Virus record (IMG/VR): IMGVR_UViG_3300043331_000466
Location: 1 to 24,715 of that record
Strand: one strand, 5' to 3'
Length of the DNA: 24,715 nucleotides
Origin: a virus
Shown in pieces: positions 6,483 through 24,715 of this stretch; position 1 is the first letter of the stretch, and every line of letters begins with the position of its first letter. The notes below the pieces were generated by a model, which saw only the letters and a list, made by a program, of their open reading frames with translations, was not told where the DNA came from and did no database searches. Both the position numbers and the translations under genes were made by a program.

Positions 6483-7474
6483 TATCCCTTGAGCACTCCC
6501 TTGAGATTGGACAGGCGCTGCTCGAGGCGGCTGATGAACGGGGACGACCCGGTCACAGCGTCCGTGCGCGCCAGCCTGTTGCGGAACGCATTCGGATCGG
6601 CCCCGAACTGCGCCCCTCCGATTGCGAGCTTAGCGGCCTCCTGCGGAGCAGCGACCTGCACCGCCATGTTGAAGTACGGTGCCATGTACTGCTGCGCCGA
6701 CATGGAGGCCGGCTTGTTCCGGTAGATAGAAGCGTACCGGGGTTCTTGTTCCACGCGGGTGAGCACGAAAGTCTCGAAGTCGAGCTTCTGCATGGGGTTC
6801 GCTGTGACAGCGTCCACGTACGCACGTGCGATTCCGCGAGCGTCCTTGGGCTCCTCGAGGAGAGTGCCCCGCCAGATGTCGCGCACGCTGTTGGCCAGCT
6901 GGTCCAGGTCGAACTGCTGGGCTACCGAACGCCCACCGCCGCCACCGCCGCCCCCTGACCGGCGCGCACCGAGGCCCAAGTCCAGAGCCTCCTGCAGCCG
7001 GCGGTCACGGGAGCCGAGCCAGTTAGTGGCGATGCCGTAGATGAACTCGAAGCCCGCTGGGGTGTTGGTCAGATCGAGCGGGGCCAGGTAGTCCGAGTTG
7101 ATCGATCGGTCCACAGCCCGCAGCAGGTCCGGGAACAGGTTCGAGAGCCAGGCCGCGTACGTCTGCGGGTTCTCGCCGAACGCCTCTGCCACGTTGGGAA
7201 TCTCGTCGAACAGCCTGTCGTACAGGTACTCCTGCCAGGCGACCGGAGTGCCGAACTCGTCCTGGTAGAACTCCGTGTTGTCGCCGCCCTCCACGTACTC
7301 CGGGCCCGACTGATCCGGGGAGAAGATGCCGCCAAAGGGGGCGTCGGGATCGACTATGGACGTGCCCGACTGATCCGGCTGAGTCTGCGCAGCGGAACGG
7401 CTCGGAGTCGTCGTCATCTGCGTGTTAGGGCGGTTGCCGGACTGCGCGTCAACGGACTGGCGGGTGTTGGCCAT
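6482..7474 (-). CDS. Hypothetical virion-associated protein with poly-glycine linker, 330 aa
   Basis: ATG at 7474 overlaps the TGA of the giant gene by one base (TGATG). The first 70 residues are polar and disordered (MANTRQSVDAQSGNRPNTQM, then Asp/Glu/Gly-rich). An ordered middle follows ('EFGTPVAWQEYLYDRLFDEI', 'YAAWLSNLFPDLLRAVDRSI'). At about residues 173-180 there is a run of eight glycines flanked by Arg residues, which looks like a flexible linker between two helical halves. The C-terminal half contains 'FDLDQLANSVRDIWRGTLLE', 'KLDFETFVLTRVEQEPRYAS' and 'SPFISRLEQRLSNLKGVLKG'. No catalytic motif or membrane span is visible. It lies between the giant protein and the 427-aa protein, all translationally linked, so a shared complex in the virion is plausible. 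I do not recognise a family. Confidence 0.7.
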   Translation of the reverse strand: MANTRQSVDAQSGNRPNTQMTTTPSRSAAQTQPDQSGTSIVDPDAPFGGIFSPDQSGPEYVEGGDNTEFYQDEFGTPVAWQEYLYDRLFDEIPNVAEAFGENPQTYAAWLSNLFPDLLRAVDRSINSDYLAPLDLTNTPAGFEFIYGIATNWLGSRDRRLQEALDLGLGARRSGGGGGGGGRSVAQQFDLDQLANSVRDIWRGTLLEEPKDARGIARAYVDAVTANPMQKLDFETFVLTRVEQEPRYASIYRNKPASMSAQQYMAPYFNMAVQVAAPQEAAKLAIGGAQFGADPNAFRNRLARTDAVTGSSPFISRLEQRLSNLKGVLKG

Positions 7475-10400
7475 CAGTCGTTCCTCCGAAAGTCGTCCTC
7501 GCTGTAGTAGGGGGTGTCACCGATCCACAGCCAGGCGAGCTCCCGTCCGTACTGGTCCGTGTTCGTGCCAAAAGTATCAGGGTCGCGCACGAGCCAGATT
7601 CTATCGCCATTGCGCAGCGCTTCCATGAGAGCGTCCTGCAGCGCTTCCTTGTCCGTCTGACCGGCGGGCTCGTGCATCTCCGCGGCCCTGACGCCTAACA
7701 GTCGTACCTCGTGCATCTTCGGCCGTGCACCTGCATCGACCCCGCCAATCAGACGAGCAGCGCCTAGCGCCTCGGACACTACCAGAGTGTCGCCGTCTAC
7801 AACGTGCTGGATGTACGGGGCGTAAGCGTTCGGGTTCTCAGAGCCATCGGCCAGGGTAGGAGCGGCCGGCTGCGGAGGCTCCCAGTCCAGAGGGCCGTAC
7901 GTGCGCTCGAAGCGGGTTTTCCAGATGCCCCGCCAGTCGAGGGGAAGATCGGTGGTCTGCATCAGCACCGAGTACCGCTGCGCCACAGCTTCCTGCTCCG
8001 ACAGAGTCACACCGCCGTTGCGATCCCTAACCCGTTCGGACAGGTTCGCCTCGAACGCGATGAAGTCCGTCAGGTTGCGCCGCCAGTCCTCATCCAGATC
8101 GGGGTTGTTCGCCTGCGAGGCCAGCGAGAAGTCTGCCGCCGCTGCCGGCGCTGAGCGTTGGTCCACGTACGACTGGTAGGGGCCGCGAACGATGGACCAC
8201 ACAGGCGAGTCCACCTGAGTGAGCACGTCCTGCACGCCCTGGAACAGTTGCAGCCCGGTCATGCCGGGAGTCAGATCGATGCCCAGTCCGTTGGCCAGCG
8301 CCTGCACCTCGGTCGGGAACTGGAACAGCTGTAGCTCGCTGAATCTGGCGCTCAGTTCGTCATCGTCCAAGCCGGGCCAGCTCGAGCCCCACGGCTTCAA
8401 CTGGGTGGGCAGGCGCACAGAGTCCCGCAGCGCCTCAAACTCCTCAGAGCCCTCGGCAATGCCGGACTGCTCGGCCACGAACCTCTCGAAGTCGAGCTCG
8501 ATGCTGTTCCAATCCTCCCACACCTCACGGCCGTTCTCGTAGCCGAGGCGCTGTCCGAACTCAGACGCAGCGACCTGGTCCATCGCGGCCTTAATCTCGG
8601 GAGTGACGCCCGAGTCCCATATGAAGTTGTTCACGGACTCGGCAGTGAACTCGTAAATCTGCTTAGCCGCCGATTCCTTCGACGCCTGGATCAGGCCGAG
8701 GATGCGATGCGCACGGCTCAGCGGCTGGATGGGCCGCACGTAGCCGGCCTCGATCAGCGCCTGGTGCCGGAGCAGCCCCTCCCTCGTACCGTCAGTGCGG
8801 TACGCAGTCTGTGCCTCAGTGCCTAAGACGCTCTGCGCCGTGGCGGTCCACTCCCAGGAACCTACCAGGTTCACAGCGAGCGCCGGATACTGCGCGATGT
8901 ACAGGTCGCGCTTCCACTGAGGCAAGTCGAAGAACATGCTGCGGATGTCGTTAGAGGCAGATCGAACCTGCTCCTCAGAGCTGTTCTCGTTGATCCTGAA
9001 CCTCGTGCGCAGATCGTCGGGGAATCTGCGGGACGCCTCGAGCCACACGTTCTGAATCTCGTCAAGGCCAGTGTCGTACTCGGCCCTCACCGGAACCGCC
9101 AGACGGGTCAGCACTCGAGAGGCGTGCGACATCGATGCGTTCCGGTCAGCCTGAGTGGCCAGCCCCCGCAGGTACAGGTCAATCGCCTCCGGGTCCTGCA
9201 GGCTCAGGATGGTGTTCAGCTCCTCCTCGTCGGCCATCAACGCCGACAGCTGGCGAGTTCGGTCAATCTCTCGAGAGATGTCGCCCATCTCGGAGGTGAA
9301 GTTGTAGAAGGGCACGCCCATCAGTCCGCCCGTCAGGTCGGTCAGGAGGGAGATGCCAGAGCCCACCGTGCCGCCCCCGAGAATGTCGCCCAGCAGACCG
9401 CCGCGGTTGTACTCGGCAGAGGGAATGAACTGGGCGATGTTGGACACGAGCTCCTGGTACGCCTCTGGGTCGTCCACCGGGTCGTACATGTTCTCGATGA
9501 CCAAGTCCATGAACACGATCGGAATGAACCCGAGTCCGGGGAGGATCGATCCGAACGGGTTCTCCCCGCCAGTGGGCAGGAAGATGAGCGGGTTGAAGCT
9601 CGCCTCTTCGGCGTTGAACGGGAGGCCCACGCCGGGAGCGAACTCGTCCACGGTGAAGTCCGTAGCGGCCAGGCGGGACATCATCGCCAGCGGCTTCGGG
9701 TTCAGCATCAGCCGGTCCACCGCCCCGTTGGCGATCGTGCCGGCGTTGAGGAAGTTGCGATTGTTGATCCACCCGCGCAGAGCCGGCCGAGTCAGAACCT
9801 CACGGCCCCAGAACGCCGCCATGTCAGCCCACGGACGGCCGAAGGGGAACACGGCCCGGGCCTGCTGCCCGAACCTGCTGCCCTGGTCCCACGTGTACAA
9901 GGTGTTGTCAATCTCGGTCAGAGCTCTCGAGTCGGCCAGGTCGTCGATGTAAGACTCGAGCACCATCCCGTTGCGAGACGCCAAGTCCTGCAGGTACGGC
10001 TTGAGGCCGGCCCGGGACCCGTAGATGCCGCGCAGTCCCAACAGCTGCTCGAGCTCGTTGTCGGGGACGATCCTGCGCCCCTGACTCGTGAACAGCTTCA
10101 CCAGGCGCTCGCGCTCCGTCTTGCGCACGAGCTCGGCCAGGAAGCCCCGGCGGTAGTTCACAGGGTTCATGAACAGGTGCTCAAAGAACGACTCGGTCAG
10201 GGCGGACACCGGAGTGCGGTTGCCCATCTGCTTGCGCACACCGCGCACCGGCCCCATGTGATTGAACACCCAGGCGGGCAGCTCGTGCACACGACCGCCC
10301 TCGGACTCGATCAGCTGCGCAGTCTCCTCCCACGCCCTCCGCATGTCGGCGTACTTGCCCGACTTGCGAGACGGCTTGAGGATCACGTTGTCGAAGATCG

Positions 10401-13400
10401 TCGTCCAGCCGTCGAACAGATCGTCAGAGCTGCCCAAGAGCCCGGTAACGCCCTTGTTCAGCGTCACCTGCTGCCTGGCCCTCAGACCATCAGGTCCCGT
10501 GAACCACTCTCGGAAAGCGTCACGGCCGCGCAGGAAGGCACGGAAGCCAGAGTCCTGCAGCAAGTCGCCGGTCCAGCGCCGAGCAGCGTCGGGGTAAATC
10601 GCATCGCCGGGCTTGATGTCGTCCCATCCCAGACCGATGCCCTCGAACACCTGGCGCTCGGCCTGCTTGTAAATCGTTGGCCCCTCCGACAGGACACGGA
10701 TTCGCTCCTGTGCCCTGCGGGGCAAGTGCTGAGCGCCCCTGCGCACACTGAGTCTGCCGTGCCGCAACAGTGCGCTGGCACGTGCAGAGGTGAAGGCAGC
10801 TCGGTCGTACACCCACTTCATCAGAGCATCAGCGCCCCCGATGTGGAAGATTCGCATGAGCTCGTCGAACGAGACGGTCATCGCCGTCGCCGGCTTGAAC
10901 ACCTTGTCGATGACCCACCACTTGTGCAGGCCCCACGCCGTTTCGCGAACCTGGTGGCCAAAGGCTCTCTGTGAGAACCTGATGTACTTCGCCCCGCCCC
11001 ACTCAGAGGCCACAATCATCTCGAGGGGAGTGAGCGGAACGTTAACCGCCATGCGCGTGTTGAGCACAGTGCTCAAGTTGCCCACCAGCTTTTCGGGATT
11101 GCTCACACCGAGCTCGCGAACCTGATCGCGCAGCTCCTCGGGCAGGAACTTCCTCGCCCCTTCGTGCTCTCCCACTATCGGAGTGCGACCCTTCCGCAGC
11201 TCTTCCCAGGGCACAATACCAGTCTCGGGGTCCACCAGCTCAGCCCATTCCTTGCGAGTAGCGATGCGGGTCCGGTTGAAGTCGTCCCACATGTCCTCGA
11301 CCAGCTTCGCCAACTCGGCCGTGTCAGTTATCTGCCCGTAACGAGCATCTAGTTCGCCCAGTTGTCGCTCGACGGTGCGCAGGCGAGTCACGTACTCCTC
11401 CTGCAACTGAGCCCGATTCGCCTTGGCCTGAGTCCACTGATCGATCATGTTGGGGTTCGTCGGCAGCTGATCCTCGAGGAAGCGAATCGAGTCGTCCCAG
11501 CCGCCGCCCTTCAAGTCCTCGAGCGCAAGCAGCTCTTCCTTCAACGGTCGCAGCCTGGAAAGGTCGTCCACGTACTGAGAGTTGGCCTGAGCGAGCCGGC
11601 GCTGATAGTCGAGCACCCTGTTCACCCACAGCTCGGCCTTGGCAGTGTCGTCGCCCCACAGCCGTGTAGCAGTCTCGATGATCTTCGACGCCGACTGAGG
11701 GCCGTGCAGCTCGAAGCGGGAAATCATGTGCTGCGGGCTCATGTACCTGGTGATCCAGTCCGTCCCGGGCAGTGTGCGCAGCAGCTTGCGCAGGCGATTA
11801 GTCCACGCCATGCCCGTAGCGAGACGGGTCGCTGAGGGAGGAGTAGCGCCATTGGCCACCGCCCGCTCGATGATCTTCTGCAGCTCGTCCCTCGCTCGCA
11901 CAGCGTCCGTGCCCAGCACCACACGCTTGGGCAGCAGCCTATCTGGCCGCACCAGCGTCGGAGTGTCGGGAGTCAGACTGGTGGGGTGGTTGACGATCGA
12001 CTCGCCGGCCTCGAGAAGGCTGTCAGCCGCCACACCAGCCGGTCCCACCTCGATGGTCCCTCCGACGTGCATCGGGGTCCCGCTGTCGATCGCCTGCCTG
12101 GCCACCGACGCAATCTCGGAAAGGTCCTCGGACGCCCGGAAGGCGAACACGGGCCGCAACGGAGCCGTAGCCTGTCCGCCCGGGAAGAGTTCCTCAACGT
12201 CCCGGCCAGCTGCCAGTGCACGCTGCGCAGCTTCGGGAAGGTCAGTGCGACGGAACACGAGCACCCAACCCTCACGGCCGGCCATAGCCTGCTCGCCAGC
12301 CTTGCCCCATTTGGATACGGTGGGCCTGGTGCTCTGGGCGTACGTCAGCGCACGCTCAGCTTCCTGCGTCAGTCCCCCTCGAGTGAAATCATCAGCCCCC
12401 TGCAGCATCGCCTCGACGACATCATCCGCCACTCGGGTCGTGCCGTGGAAGGCGAACAGCTGGGGAGTGTCAGCGATCTGCGCAGCGACCTGCGTAGTCG
12501 CGTCCGATGGATCGAGCAGCCTGCCCTGGCCGACAATCCTCTTGAGCGTGTCGGTGATGCGCACACTGACCGGCACACCGCGCAGGCCCATGCGCTGGGC
12601 AACGGCCACTCGCTTCAACCCGTCCGTAACGTGCAAGGTGCGGTCGCGCAGCGAGTAGGTGAGCTCGATCGGCTCGGAGAATCCGCTGTTGCGCACGCTA
12701 GTTGCGAGGTTGTCCAGAGTCTCGTCCGAGAACCTGCCGATGCGGGCCACGTCCTCGGGGTCGAGCACCTTCGCCACCGTGTCCAGGGCAGTCTCTTGCG
12801 CGTACAGCGCCCTCTGCGAGTTCAGCCACGGACGTGCCGGCAGAGTCTGCGGCACAGCCTGCAGCGCCTCCATCGCAGCCGGCAGCTCTCCCACCTCGTC
12901 GAGGAAGGACAGCGTGTGCACCAGGGGCATGTTCCCCTTGGCGTCGGACAGGGCGATGGTCACCGCATCGTCGATGGTGCGACGGACCAGGGGACCCCGG
13001 GCCATGCGCAGAGCGTCATCTATCGTAGAAGCGCGAGAGGCAACGTTAGTGAGCCTGGGACCGAACAGCCAGGTGGTGGGATCAAACGCAATACCTGCGC
13101 CCACGTCCAGCGCCAGGCCAACGGCCGTGTTCTCGATGCCGAGCACGCCAGCCGGAGTGTCCTTCGCCTTGGCAATCTCCTCGTGCATGTTCTCCCACCG
13201 CCCGTCGAGCACGTCCGACCGAACATCGTCATCGGTCAGCAGCAGCGTCAGGGCGCTGGCCAAGCGCATCGGGTACTTCCCGTACGTGGCCATCGCCTCG
13301 AGAACGTTCGCACTGAGCGTGAACTGCTGCTCATCAAGGGTCTGCACGAACTCGTCAAGGTCAGCTCGGTAACCGCCCTCGGGATCGTTCACAATCTGTC

Positions 13401-14370
13401 GCAGCTGATCCTGCACCTCGGGCAGCTCGTTCAAGTCAGCGGAAAAGAACCCGAAGGCCAGGAACGGATCGCCGTTCGACATCTGCAGGTAAGTGTTGTA
13501 CTGCTGGGGTGACTCGGTCTGCAGCTGCTGCCACGCCTGCTCAGTGACCATCGGCCGCAGGCGGTCCATCAGCGCCTCGTCGGGCAATCCCTGCTCGGCC
13601 TCGAGCTCAGCGATAGCCTTCTGCTGCTCGGCCTCGAACTCGGCCCGGTACGGGTTGAACGGGATCACACCAGCGTTGTGCAGCCCCTCCGTCACAAGAT
13701 CGCCAGTGCCCGCTGGGCTGGACAGCCGCATGCCCAGCTCGAGCCCGTTAGAGATGACCCACCCGACACCACCGAGCACGGTCTGCACCCAGTTGCCCTC
13801 GGCGCGAAGATCGGCCCCGGCACCGGACAGCTCGTCGCGAACCTGCTGCTCGTACTCCATCAGCGACTGCTGGTCGTCGTCCCCGAAGAGAGAGGCGGTG
13901 ATCTGAGAGCCCTGTGTGGGGATGGCGCGCAGGAAGTTCTGGAACGCTCGTCGCCGATTAGCAGAGTCGTACCGGCGCTGAGCCTCGACCCTGATCTGCT
14001 CGTCGTGCTCGCGCTTCCACGCCGCATCCTCCTGCAGCTGGAACACGGACTGTGCGATGTCGGGAGTCAGTAGGGCAACGTCAGCGGGGTCCTGAGCCGC
14101 CAACCACGACAGGGGAACCTGTCCCCGGTTGCTCAGCCAGACCCGCTCAACCTCGTCCACGAAGGCGTGGCCAGAGTTGTCGGTGCGCAGCCGGCGACGA
14201 TTAGCCGCCCTCTGAGCACCGGGGTCGTCCAGGTCGAACATATTCCGCAGCTCTTCGGGCTGATTGGCGTGGGCGATGAAGCGCCAGCTGTCTCGCAGAC
14301 CCTGTCGCAGCTGCTCCGGCTTGGCGTTGACCTTCTCGTCGCGCTCGTAGGCGTACGGGTTCTGCGGCAT
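7474..14370 (-). CDS. Giant multidomain virion protein with ParB-like and SNase-like domains, 2298 aa
   Basis: ATG at 14370, four bases after the preceding stop; it begins MPQNPYAYERDEKVNAKPEQ. The N-terminal 500 residues are helical and Gln/Glu-rich. At about 530-610 there is a ParB/sulfiredoxin-like domain ending in 'LHVTDGLKRVAVAQRMGLRG' and 'VPVSVRITD' (the family pattern is DGxxRxxAAxxxG...VPV). At about 637-760 'FAFHGTTRVADDVVEAMLQG', 'GGLTQEAERALTYAQ' and 'GREGWVLVFRRTD' resemble ADP-ribosyltransferase-like folds in phage polyvalent proteins; this is tentative. A hydrophobic Gly/Pro-rich patch lies near 1590-1625. At about 2184-2298 a staphylococcal-nuclease-like domain shows VVDGDTL, VRLLGVRAAE and DQYGRELAW. 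The Asp21-, Arg35-, Glu43- and Arg87-equivalents are kept, but the Asp40-equivalent calcium ligand is Arg. Position between portal and scaffold suggests an internal, DNA-ejected protein. No virion RNA polymerase motifs were found. Confidence 0.8.
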   Translation of the reverse strand: MPQNPYAYERDEKVNAKPEQLRQGLRDSWRFIAHANQPEELRNMFDLDDPGAQRAANRRRLRTDNSGHAFVDEVERVWLSNRGQVPLSWLAAQDPADVALLTPDIAQSVFQLQEDAAWKREHDEQIRVEAQRRYDSANRRRAFQNFLRAIPTQGSQITASLFGDDDQQSLMEYEQQVRDELSGAGADLRAEGNWVQTVLGGVGWVISNGLELGMRLSSPAGTGDLVTEGLHNAGVIPFNPYRAEFEAEQQKAIAELEAEQGLPDEALMDRLRPMVTEQAWQQLQTESPQQYNTYLQMSNGDPFLAFGFFSADLNELPEVQDQLRQIVNDPEGGYRADLDEFVQTLDEQQFTLSANVLEAMATYGKYPMRLASALTLLLTDDDVRSDVLDGRWENMHEEIAKAKDTPAGVLGIENTAVGLALDVGAGIAFDPTTWLFGPRLTNVASRASTIDDALRMARGPLVRRTIDDAVTIALSDAKGNMPLVHTLSFLDEVGELPAAMEALQAVPQTLPARPWLNSQRALYAQETALDTVAKVLDPEDVARIGRFSDETLDNLATSVRNSGFSEPIELTYSLRDRTLHVTDGLKRVAVAQRMGLRGVPVSVRITDTLKRIVGQGRLLDPSDATTQVAAQIADTPQLFAFHGTTRVADDVVEAMLQGADDFTRGGLTQEAERALTYAQSTRPTVSKWGKAGEQAMAGREGWVLVFRRTDLPEAAQRALAAGRDVEELFPGGQATAPLRPVFAFRASEDLSEIASVARQAIDSGTPMHVGGTIEVGPAGVAADSLLEAGESIVNHPTSLTPDTPTLVRPDRLLPKRVVLGTDAVRARDELQKIIERAVANGATPPSATRLATGMAWTNRLRKLLRTLPGTDWITRYMSPQHMISRFELHGPQSASKIIETATRLWGDDTAKAELWVNRVLDYQRRLAQANSQYVDDLSRLRPLKEELLALEDLKGGGWDDSIRFLEDQLPTNPNMIDQWTQAKANRAQLQEEYVTRLRTVERQLGELDARYGQITDTAELAKLVEDMWDDFNRTRIATRKEWAELVDPETGIVPWEELRKGRTPIVGEHEGARKFLPEELRDQVRELGVSNPEKLVGNLSTVLNTRMAVNVPLTPLEMIVASEWGGAKYIRFSQRAFGHQVRETAWGLHKWWVIDKVFKPATAMTVSFDELMRIFHIGGADALMKWVYDRAAFTSARASALLRHGRLSVRRGAQHLPRRAQERIRVLSEGPTIYKQAERQVFEGIGLGWDDIKPGDAIYPDAARRWTGDLLQDSGFRAFLRGRDAFREWFTGPDGLRARQQVTLNKGVTGLLGSSDDLFDGWTTIFDNVILKPSRKSGKYADMRRAWEETAQLIESEGGRVHELPAWVFNHMGPVRGVRKQMGNRTPVSALTESFFEHLFMNPVNYRRGFLAELVRKTERERLVKLFTSQGRRIVPDNELEQLLGLRGIYGSRAGLKPYLQDLASRNGMVLESYIDDLADSRALTEIDNTLYTWDQGSRFGQQARAVFPFGRPWADMAAFWGREVLTRPALRGWINNRNFLNAGTIANGAVDRLMLNPKPLAMMSRLAATDFTVDEFAPGVGLPFNAEEASFNPLIFLPTGGENPFGSILPGLGFIPIVFMDLVIENMYDPVDDPEAYQELVSNIAQFIPSAEYNRGGLLGDILGGGTVGSGISLLTDLTGGLMGVPFYNFTSEMGDISREIDRTRQLSALMADEEELNTILSLQDPEAIDLYLRGLATQADRNASMSHASRVLTRLAVPVRAEYDTGLDEIQNVWLEASRRFPDDLRTRFRINENSSEEQVRSASNDIRSMFFDLPQWKRDLYIAQYPALAVNLVGSWEWTATAQSVLGTEAQTAYRTDGTREGLLRHQALIEAGYVRPIQPLSRAHRILGLIQASKESAAKQIYEFTAESVNNFIWDSGVTPEIKAAMDQVAASEFGQRLGYENGREVWEDWNSIELDFERFVAEQSGIAEGSEEFEALRDSVRLPTQLKPWGSSWPGLDDDELSARFSELQLFQFPTEVQALANGLGIDLTPGMTGLQLFQGVQDVLTQVDSPVWSIVRGPYQSYVDQRSAPAAAADFSLASQANNPDLDEDWRRNLTDFIAFEANLSERVRDRNGGVTLSEQEAVAQRYSVLMQTTDLPLDWRGIWKTRFERTYGPLDWEPPQPAAPTLADGSENPNAYAPYIQHVVDGDTLVVSEALGAARLIGGVDAGARPKMHEVRLLGVRAAEMHEPAGQTDKEALQDALMEALRNGDRIWLVRDPDTFGTNTDQYGRELAWLWIGDTPYYSEDDFRRND

Positions 14371-23302: not shown

Positions 23303-23485
23303 ACCCTGCCGGTGTCGCGGACATCAGCCCTGCCAGGGAAAGTAGGGGAACCCCGGGGGGCGTCCGCGTTCACTCCAACGCCGACAACGGGCCCCCTATT
23401 CCCGCCCGGGAAGGAAAAGTTCCCGGTTCCCAAAGTTCCCGCCAGGTAAATCTCCCGATCCCTCCCCAAATCCCTGATTCCGGCC

Positions 23486-23589
23486 CGGGGTATCTCGCAC
23501 CCCGTGCTGGACCCGGAGGTCCAGGCGCAGCGGCAGCGGAGCCTGGGACCTGGCGCGATAGCGCCGGTCCAGCGGGGGCGGATACGCCC
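23486..23589. other. Four tandem hairpins
   Basis: Four consecutive stems occupy 104 bases: CGGGGT/ACCCCG (23486-23504), CTGGACC-CGGA-GGTCCAG (23507-23524), GGACC-T-GGCGC-GATA-GCGCC-GGTCC (23546-23570) and GGGCG-GATA-CGCCC (23576-23589). The last two share a GATA loop on the plus strand (TATC on the minus strand). Such close-packed hairpins are known from single-strand initiation sites and structured leaders. Which strand is used cannot be told. Confidence 0.5.
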
Positions 23590-23599
23590 GGTAGGGGGA

Positions 23600-23645
23600 A
23601 AAGTTCCCAGTTCCCATATATAGGGGGTAGGGAACTGGGAACTTT
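23600..23645. repeat. Perfect 16-bp inverted repeat with TATATA in the spacer
   Basis: AAAGTTCCCAGTTCCC (23600-23615) and GGGAACTGGGAACTTT (23630-23645) are exact inverted copies. The 14-bp spacer ATATATAGGGGGTA is the most AT-rich spot nearby. The site could be an operator pair around a promoter, an unwinding element or a hairpin. Confidence 0.6.
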
Positions 23646-23726
23646 GGCGTCACCATTGGGTTTTCGGGGTATTTTCGCTCGGGCACTGGGAACTTTTGCT
23701 CGGGGTCTGTCCGTCCCCTGCCCGCA

Positions 23727-23769: not shown

Positions 23770-23880
23770 CTCGGTAACCCCCCTACCCCCCGTTTCCCGC
23801 GCCAGTACGGGGGATTCCCGGGTTTTCCGCACATCTGCGGGGGCATTCCCCCCAAGTATGGCGAGGGAGACTTACCATCC

Positions 23881-23920
23881 TGGGTAACGCAGAGTAACGT
23901 TGTGCAACGTTGACAAACGT
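23881..23920. repeat. Four 10-bp AACG iterons
   Basis: The 40 bases read TGGGTAACGC, AGAGTAACGT, TGTGCAACGT, TGACAAACGT. AACG falls at 23886, 23896, 23906 and 23916, exactly 10 bp apart and thus on one face of the helix. A perfect plus-strand -35 box TTGACA lies inside (23910-23915), but the match 17 bp downstream (CCTATC) is poor. The array fits iterons for a replication initiator or a cooperative repressor site. Confidence 0.6.
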
Positions 23921-24161
23921 AAGGGCGCGTGCCCTATCGCAGAAGTTCACAGTCATCCCGGGGGGATAGGGTATTCGTTATCGGGCGGCTCGCCCGACAT
24001 CACAGCTCTTACCCGCTCGCACGCGCACAGCCCTCGCAAGCTCGGGCCGGTCACGATCACCACCGCTCACTGGGGACACGGAGGTCACAGACGATCGACC
24101 CCAACGGGATCGGGATCGGGGAACCGACAAGGAAGAACCCGCATCGCAGGACCGCCGCTGA

Positions 24162-24602
24162 CCCAGCCCGTGACGCTCCGGCGGACAGCACCCTCCCACA
24201 GGCGGAACACGCGTTTGTTCGCACGAACCTGCTGGGCGGGGAAGGAGGGCGCTGTCCCTGAGCCGGAGCGACGGGCTGGGAGGCTCGTGCGCGCTCGTCG
24301 GACCCCCCGCTTGCGCGGGGACCCCCGGAACTCCGACGAGCTAGTGACGGTTCACCGGGCGCTGATTGTACCCCCTGGGTCCCTGAGCGGAGTCAAGGGT
24401 CGATCGTGCCACTCTGCGAATGGGACCCTGCCGGCCCGGACAGGGAAAGGGACGGATCGGCTAACGCCGCTCGAGTCCCCCGGGCCGTCAGGGCGCGCCA
24501 GAGCCCGCGCCATTCGCAGACCGGACACGACTCTCGGGCGAGCGTGCTAGCGCACGCTGAGCCCGTCCCTTGACTCCGCCACCCAGGGGGTGCGGGGACA
24601 GC
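24162..24602. ncRNA. Candidate large structured RNA (three base-paired domains)
   Basis: Domain A, 24162-24280: stems of 10, 9, 7 and 6 bp in register (CCCAGCCCGT/ACGGGCTGGG, CGCTCCGGC/GCCGGAGCG, GGACAGC/GCTGTCC, CCCTCC/GGAGGG) with small bulges. Domain B, 24293-24341: GCTCGTCGGA/TCCGACGAGC around CCCCGC-TTGC-GCGGGG. Domain C, 24361-24602: nested stems GCTG/CAGC, a 13-pair stem around CCCCCTGGGT/ACCCAGGGGG, GCGGAGTCAAGGG/CCCTTGACTCCGC, CTGCGAATGG/CCATTCGCAG, CCCTG-c-CGGCCCGG/CCGGGCCG-t-CAGGG and GGGAC/GTCCC. A side hairpin CGGGC-g-AGCGTGC-TAGC-GCACGCT-ga-GCCCG lies at 24535-24565. The strand is undecided: A190·C250 becomes G·U on the minus strand, while the t369·g592 wobble favours the plus strand. 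No tRNA, tmRNA or RNase P core was recognised. It could be a free RNA, a long leader of the plus-strand gene, or origin DNA. Confidence 0.55.
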
Positions 24603-24611
24603 AGATCAGTT

Positions 24612-24659
24612 CCTCTCCCACCAGCGGAAGGCCCGCAGGATCGGGGAGGGACGGAGAGG
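24612..24659 (+). promoter_or_regulatory. Ribosome-binding site and complementary sequestering segment
   Basis: GGAGAGG (24653-24659) is a good Shine-Dalgarno five bases before the ATG at 24665. CCTCTCC (24612-24618) is its exact complement 34 bases upstream, so a 7-bp stem would hide it. Opening this stem, perhaps by the structured RNA ending at 24602, would control translation. Both elements are visible; the switch is inferred. Confidence 0.5.
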
Positions 24660-24664
24660 CATTC

Positions 24665-24715
24665 ATGGACGAGTACGAGCTCCTCACCCTGGAGCTGGGA
24701 CACCGAGCAGCGTTC
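24665..24715 (+). CDS. Start of a rightward gene, partial (cut by the right edge)
   Basis: ATG at 24665 with GGAGAGG five bases upstream opens a frame that is still open at the last base: MDEYELLTLELGHRAAF, 17 residues. It is the only plus-strand start in the window with a convincing ribosome-binding site, and it lies just after a long gene-free control region, as expected for the first gene of a divergent operon. The visible part is acidic and helical, without recognisable motif. It could be a regulator or another early protein. It needs the adjoining sequence to be named. Confidence 0.6.
   Translation, partial: MDEYELLTLELGHRAAF

Follow-up and report, generated by a model that had tools for sequence, protein, structure and literature searches.

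The pRNA of phage phi29 is required for DNA packaging and is bound to the portal, and to our knowledge RNA is known to serve at a genome end, be it for packaging, for end maturation or for genome entry, only in phi29-like phages. The put RNA of HK022, a structured antitermination leader placed ahead of the early operon, is much smaller than the element described here. In phi29, early transcription passes through the pRNA (147–320) to the left end (PMC11476376). The template-strand hairpin of phage N4 must be closed by a C-G pair and have a loop that starts with G and ends with A; it lies at the left end, which is injected first (PMC4496689). The large RNAs GOLLD and ROOL are often found near tRNA islands (PMC12286853).

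Here we analyse a 441-base element (positions 24162–24602) of an IMG/VR contig of 24,715 bases (virus record IMGVR_UViG_3300043331_000466), the whole of which is referred to as the window. The phi29 pRNA is a noncoding phage nucleic acid close to the left end; the element is likewise noncoding and lies 292–732 bp from a terminus predicted from contig ends, and the leftward orientation is the one that we favour. Unlike the pRNA (174 nt), it spans 441 nt or more and belongs to a terminase-type phage without a phi29-type packaging system; neither strand matches the phi29 pRNA family of Rfam. Hairpins of marine relatives share with the N4 promoters the loop type C(GNA)G, the strand and the left-end position, whereas the window leader contains long rods in place of a template-strand 5–7 bp stem with a C(GNA)G triloop. 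In sequence comparisons, the giant protein encoded on this genome fragment gave no match to any polymerase such as the virion RNA polymerase of N4. The element resembles GOLLD and ROOL in being large, many-helixed and phage-linked, but has no sequence or structure match to them and no tRNA island. As a structured zone ahead of early genes it recalls HK022 put, from which it differs in that the plus strand is the less favoured one and no antitermination motif was found.

The window derives from a podovirus-like phage

The window comes from a podovirus-like, terminase-type phage, with genes on the minus strand for the large terminase, the portal, a 2298-aa giant protein, the major capsid protein, an AAA_25 ATPase and a DUF6197 protein. 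Its nearest metagenomic relatives are all distant, with terminases 55–64% identical to that of the window (64% for the best), and the terminases of Streptomyces phages such as Immanuel3 (Beephvirinae) are about 27% identical. These Beephvirinae are the closest cultured relatives that were found, and Immanuel3 has a noncoding leader of 1.2 kb at the corresponding end. A scan for terminase relatives yielded 79 loci, on contigs given L numbers below. Between the last minus-strand gene (start 23299) and a plus-strand ATG at 24665 lies a gap of about 1.37 kb with no convincing gene inside, and a purine-rich GGGAGGGACGGAGAGG immediately precedes this ATG.

The giant protein (7474–14370, minus strand) bears ParB_N-like and thermonuclease-like stretches, and its homologues, of 2300–2550 aa, come after the portal gene throughout the group of the window phage. 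Operator-like direct and inverted repeats (AAAGTTCCCAGTTCCC / GGGAACTGGGAACTTT) occupy 23413–23700, and similar GGGAACTGGTTCCC repeats are found in L015 in the equivalent interval, from the terminus to the AAA gene. Contig IMGVR_UViG_3300029448_000050 (55,746 bp; L039 and L065) carries two terminase genes of this family, separated by about 30 kb, and is a tandem or chimeric assembly of two phages. L101 (NZIO01000019.1, Pelagibacter MAG) and L102 (PADT01000072.1, Flavobacteriaceae MAG) are phage contigs of the same family, with lengths and match positions identical to those of L030 and L042.

The element is strongly folded and noncoding

The element folds at −276.1 kcal/mol on the plus strand and −284.1 kcal/mol on the minus strand, compared with −215 and −221 for shuffled sequences (z = −9.4 and −9.8; none of the 100 shuffles made for each strand reached the native energy). 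A second set of 60 shuffles gave z-scores of −8.4 (plus) and −8.3 (minus), and the flank at 23870–24161 is at chance (z = +1.3 plus, 0.05 minus). The folding-energy comparison proposed in the first-pass annotation, which had been made from the letters of the window, therefore places the element far beyond chance on both strands. The folds of the two strands have 111 base pairs in common, and the leader as a whole contains five perfect hairpins, against 1.2 expected.

All three large domains described in that annotation are present (Table 1). The 32 pairs with small bulges of domain A were recovered in the folds of both strands, and the 10-bp stage of the two-stage hairpin of domain B was read from the sequence and the plus-strand fold. 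The nested arms, apical stem and 12-bp side hairpin of domain C were likewise recovered in the folds of both strands, but two of the arms measure 11 bp rather than 13 bp. The statement that no gene fits here also agrees with our results: in the open frame at 23900–24550, GC content by codon position is flat over the element (0.69/0.68/0.76), which rules out 24162–24602 as coding sequence. In most confirmed genes of the window, second-position GC is low (~0.45) and third-position GC high (~0.84).

Table 1. Positions of the features of the left-end region in the window
Feature	Position	Strand	Description
GGGTTTTC motif	23820–23827	+	Reference point for the terminus; conserved in relatives, upstream of the AAA ATPase gene
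Terminal segment	23828–23870		Predicted end between 23870 and 23871, then conserved CTTACC (23871–23876); from contig ends of relatives
Left-end leader	23871–24664		Without genes, from predicted terminus to first early gene; z −6.8 plus / −8.0 minus; no gene signal
Tandem-GA module	24030–24047	−	Plus-strand GCCC-TC-GCAAGC-TC-GGGC; only copy in the window; lies in the leader
Domain A	24162–24280		Four helices, 10+9+7+6 = 32 bp, small bulges; 24162–24171 closes with 24271–24280
Domain B, two-stage hairpin	24293–24341		10 bp (24293–24302 with 24332–24341) enclosing 6 bp (24305–24320)
Domain C, long nested rod	24361–24602		Arms of 4, 11, 13, 5 and 11 bp; apical stem 5+4 bp
Side hairpin of domain C	24535–24565		12 bp (5+7); helices in folds of both strands
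Start of first early gene (MDEYELLTLELGHRAAF...)	24665–24715	+	From sequence; truncated by contig end

A cmscan of both strands against Rfam gave no match at the gathering threshold and one chance-level hit (E 1.7, at E ≤ 5), and kinship with GOLLD or ROOL, with which the first-pass annotation had compared the element, is not supported; the window, itself a fragment, contains no tRNA gene. No DNA similarity to the region was found in phage and plasmid collections, nor any DNA match in six relatives. A protein scan with the AAA ATPase returned no relative, and a scan of genome contigs returned only two MAG-binned marine phage contigs and one weak partial match. In the set of papers searched, no description of a left-end structured leader in such phages was found. 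The element is probably a real, uncharacterised phage element.

Contig ends of relatives point to a terminus beside the element

Twelve contigs of relatives end 43–45 nt beyond a GGGTTTTC-like motif, and in a few more the distance is slightly shorter or longer. Contigs that span the end point carry a conserved CTTAY directly after it, specifically CTTACC in the window, L059 and L056, and CTTAT in marine contigs. Furthermore, L107 and L108 begin 23 nt before the stop point of the right-end contig L027. From these contig ends, we infer that the shared stop point is a sequence-specific genome terminus with short terminal redundancy or cohesive ends, and the predicted position of this terminus would put the element at the above distance inside the left end, ahead of the first early gene. 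Immanuel3 differs, having a 276-bp direct terminal repeat. A scan with the terminus pattern for GC-rich relatives returned nothing beyond the L059 contig, already known, and a single contig of 98 kb.

Relatives carry folded leaders, with covariation in a marine subgroup

In eleven relatives, the zone equivalent to the element is mostly hairpin-rich, with leader z-scores (plus/minus) of −8.5/−12.9 in L059, −4.6/−7.0 in L056, −6.3/−9.0 in L026 and −6.4/−8.3 in L043; two are near chance on one strand (L054 plus, −1.2; L031 minus, −1.65). Perfect hairpins are also in excess, with 8 against 1.0 expected in L059 and 11–37 against 3–11 in marine left ends, while late regions show no excess. A tRNA cluster as the source of the high scores was rejected, as these leaders contain no tRNAs. 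The early region of L056, a GC-rich relative, contains very long intergenic stems at 2740–2850 and 2940–2980, with one uninterrupted 26-bp run and one perfect 18-bp hairpin.

We aligned the leaders of three marine lineages (68–80% identical) and used as controls alignments with columns shuffled within conservation classes. The consensus fold reaches −172.9 kcal/mol on the minus strand (controls, −84 to −102) and −138.6 kcal/mol on the plus strand (controls, −78 to −89). Pairs changed on both sides number 55 on the minus strand (16–30 in controls) and 44 on the plus strand (12–30 in controls), and the covarying helices include long-range ones. This covariation is strong but not final, because column shuffling preserves conservation without preserving phylogeny, and there are only three independent lineages. 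The window fold could not be aligned with any of the leaders of relatives, and no overall shape common to them was found. The covariation sought in the first-pass annotation is thus present at the homologous place in one marine subgroup, whereas the window element is without an alignable homologue. A paired double change, CAGCAAGCTG to CAGTAAACTG, distinguishes L065 from L019, which are 99% identical.

In L022, L023 and L065, the first early genes themselves are folded on both strands, with z-scores of about −3 to −20 against synonymous-codon shuffles; in the same marine subgroup, late genes and those deeper in the genome score far closer to chance. The early genes at the left ends of L065 (5350–7603), L022, L023 and L026 are packed with near-perfect hairpins on both strands. 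In other subgroups, early-gene structure is weak or mainly on the sense strand. This marine subgroup cautions that structure at the left end need not amount to a single discrete RNA; the window reaches just 51 bases into the first early gene. Early genes with synonymous sites adjusted for folding of both strands would be unusual in themselves.

The minus strand is the likelier folded strand

Beside the helices common to both strands, the window has 8 wobble pairs on the minus strand and 1 on the plus strand; the corresponding counts in L059 are 15 and 2. Partition-function calculations for the window give 14.7 expected G-T pairs on the minus strand and 6.1 on the plus strand, the latter value being below all 12 shuffles. 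The element has three apical tetraloops, which on the minus strand are GCAA, GCTA and GTTA, each closed by C-G. The left ends of L022, L023, L026 and L065 also favour the minus strand, with C(GNA)G loops at 13 to 0 and tandem GA at 19 to 2, counts that are not independent because these genomes are related. The wobble test is not robust on 400-nt tiles: it gives 5 against 5 in the second window tile, which covers most of the element, and the marine groups differ in it.

The leader of the window also contains a tandem-GA module that, on the minus strand, reads stem-GA-GCUUGC-GA-stem, forming tandem G-A pairs. The core of this module occurs in two to three copies in leaders of the marine group, and variants occur in leaders of L056 and of the L043 type; 0.02–0.14 copies are expected per leader. 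The sharing is suggestive rather than independent proof, because the pattern was defined after the marine copies had been seen and the window copy prompted the test.

Taken from these sequence features, the minus strand is likelier to be the folded one, without certainty, and the support within the window is moderate. The earlier reading on the plus strand is probably wrong: the minus strand is favoured by the wobble pairs, by the tandem G-A modules and by the types of loop, one tiled test at 5 against 5 excepted. What holds of the proposed new structured RNA is a strongly structured, noncoding, phage-borne element without a known family; the strand is the part that probably fails, and the word RNA is itself inferred.

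Possible roles of the element

We favour, weakly, a reading in which this large noncoding structured element, in a left-end leader about 290–730 bp inside a sequence-specific terminus, would work as a noncoding RNA copied leftwards from the minus strand towards the genome end (probability roughly 0.35). Such an RNA may act on an event at the left end: packaging, end maturation or early transcription. The place, the strand hints, the fit of the covariation and the resemblance to phi29 lead us to prefer it, and the function of the leftward RNA is the weakest part of this best explanation. Counting against it, a promoter scan of the region found none on either strand, and in the marine subgroup the folding continues on both strands into the early coding genes, which is hard to square with a discrete RNA. 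It is a long shot that the whole lineage of terminase-type tailed phages carries, beside the genome end, a large folded RNA (or single-stranded DNA) that evolves fast and takes part in packaging, in end maturation or in genome entry. If the reading is right, phages of a widespread lineage with marine and GC-rich members share a structured element, so far unannotated, at a constant position close to the genome end; the covariation makes its function testable, and end-linked phage RNAs or DNA hairpins would extend beyond phi29 and N4.

The element could instead be part of a structured 5′ leader of the early mRNA on the plus strand, starting near the left end, with a leader of about 700 nt serving antitermination, attenuation or mRNA stability, which we consider somewhat unlikely. 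The element directly precedes the first early gene, its plus-strand fold is equally far from shuffles, the marine covariation scores on the plus strand too, and a TTGACA hexamer lies at 23910, near the left end; however, no sigma-70-type promoter passes the scan, and wobble pairs and loop types favour the opposite strand. Three rRNA-leader-like GAGAACTC sites on the early-sense strand of the Immanuel3 leader are in keeping with an early-mRNA leader, but the window leader has no such site.

A role at the level of DNA is unlikely; here hairpins of the template (minus) strand, comparable to the N4 promoters, would extrude or become single-stranded as the genome enters, as transcription starts or as the ends mature. 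The minus-strand bias of C(GNA)G triloops and tandem GA at marine left ends argues for it, as do the match of the N4 template-strand hairpin to the marine hairpins in loop type and left-end position (PMC4496689) and the presence of structure on both strands, even within coding genes of one subgroup. The window, however, lacks C(GNA)G hairpins, its arms form long and imperfect rods that do not resemble promoter hairpins of 5–7 bp, and sequence comparisons detected no RNA polymerase in the giant virion protein.

It is improbable that the structure has no function and merely arose as a by-product when replication close to the genome end made palindromes in error (template switching). Such errors could also have made the paired change between L065 and L019, and a by-product would be consistent with Watson-Crick structure that is near-symmetric on both strands and continues through coding genes; it would not predict the long-range covarying marine helices, the conserved tandem-GA module or the strand-biased loops. 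Size, helix density and phage location might point to a divergent member of GOLLD, of ROOL or of another known large RNA class, which is very improbable given the lack of an Rfam match at the gathering threshold, the single chance-level hit and the window's lack of a tRNA gene.

The three GAGAACTC sites of Immanuel3 (L008, NC_048686) lie within 44615–45818, two of them in the contexts TTTGAGAACTCAACAGTGTG and CTTGAGAACTCCACAGCG, which we take to resemble actinobacterial rRNA leader sequences; the leader of this phage is possibly an antitermination leader.
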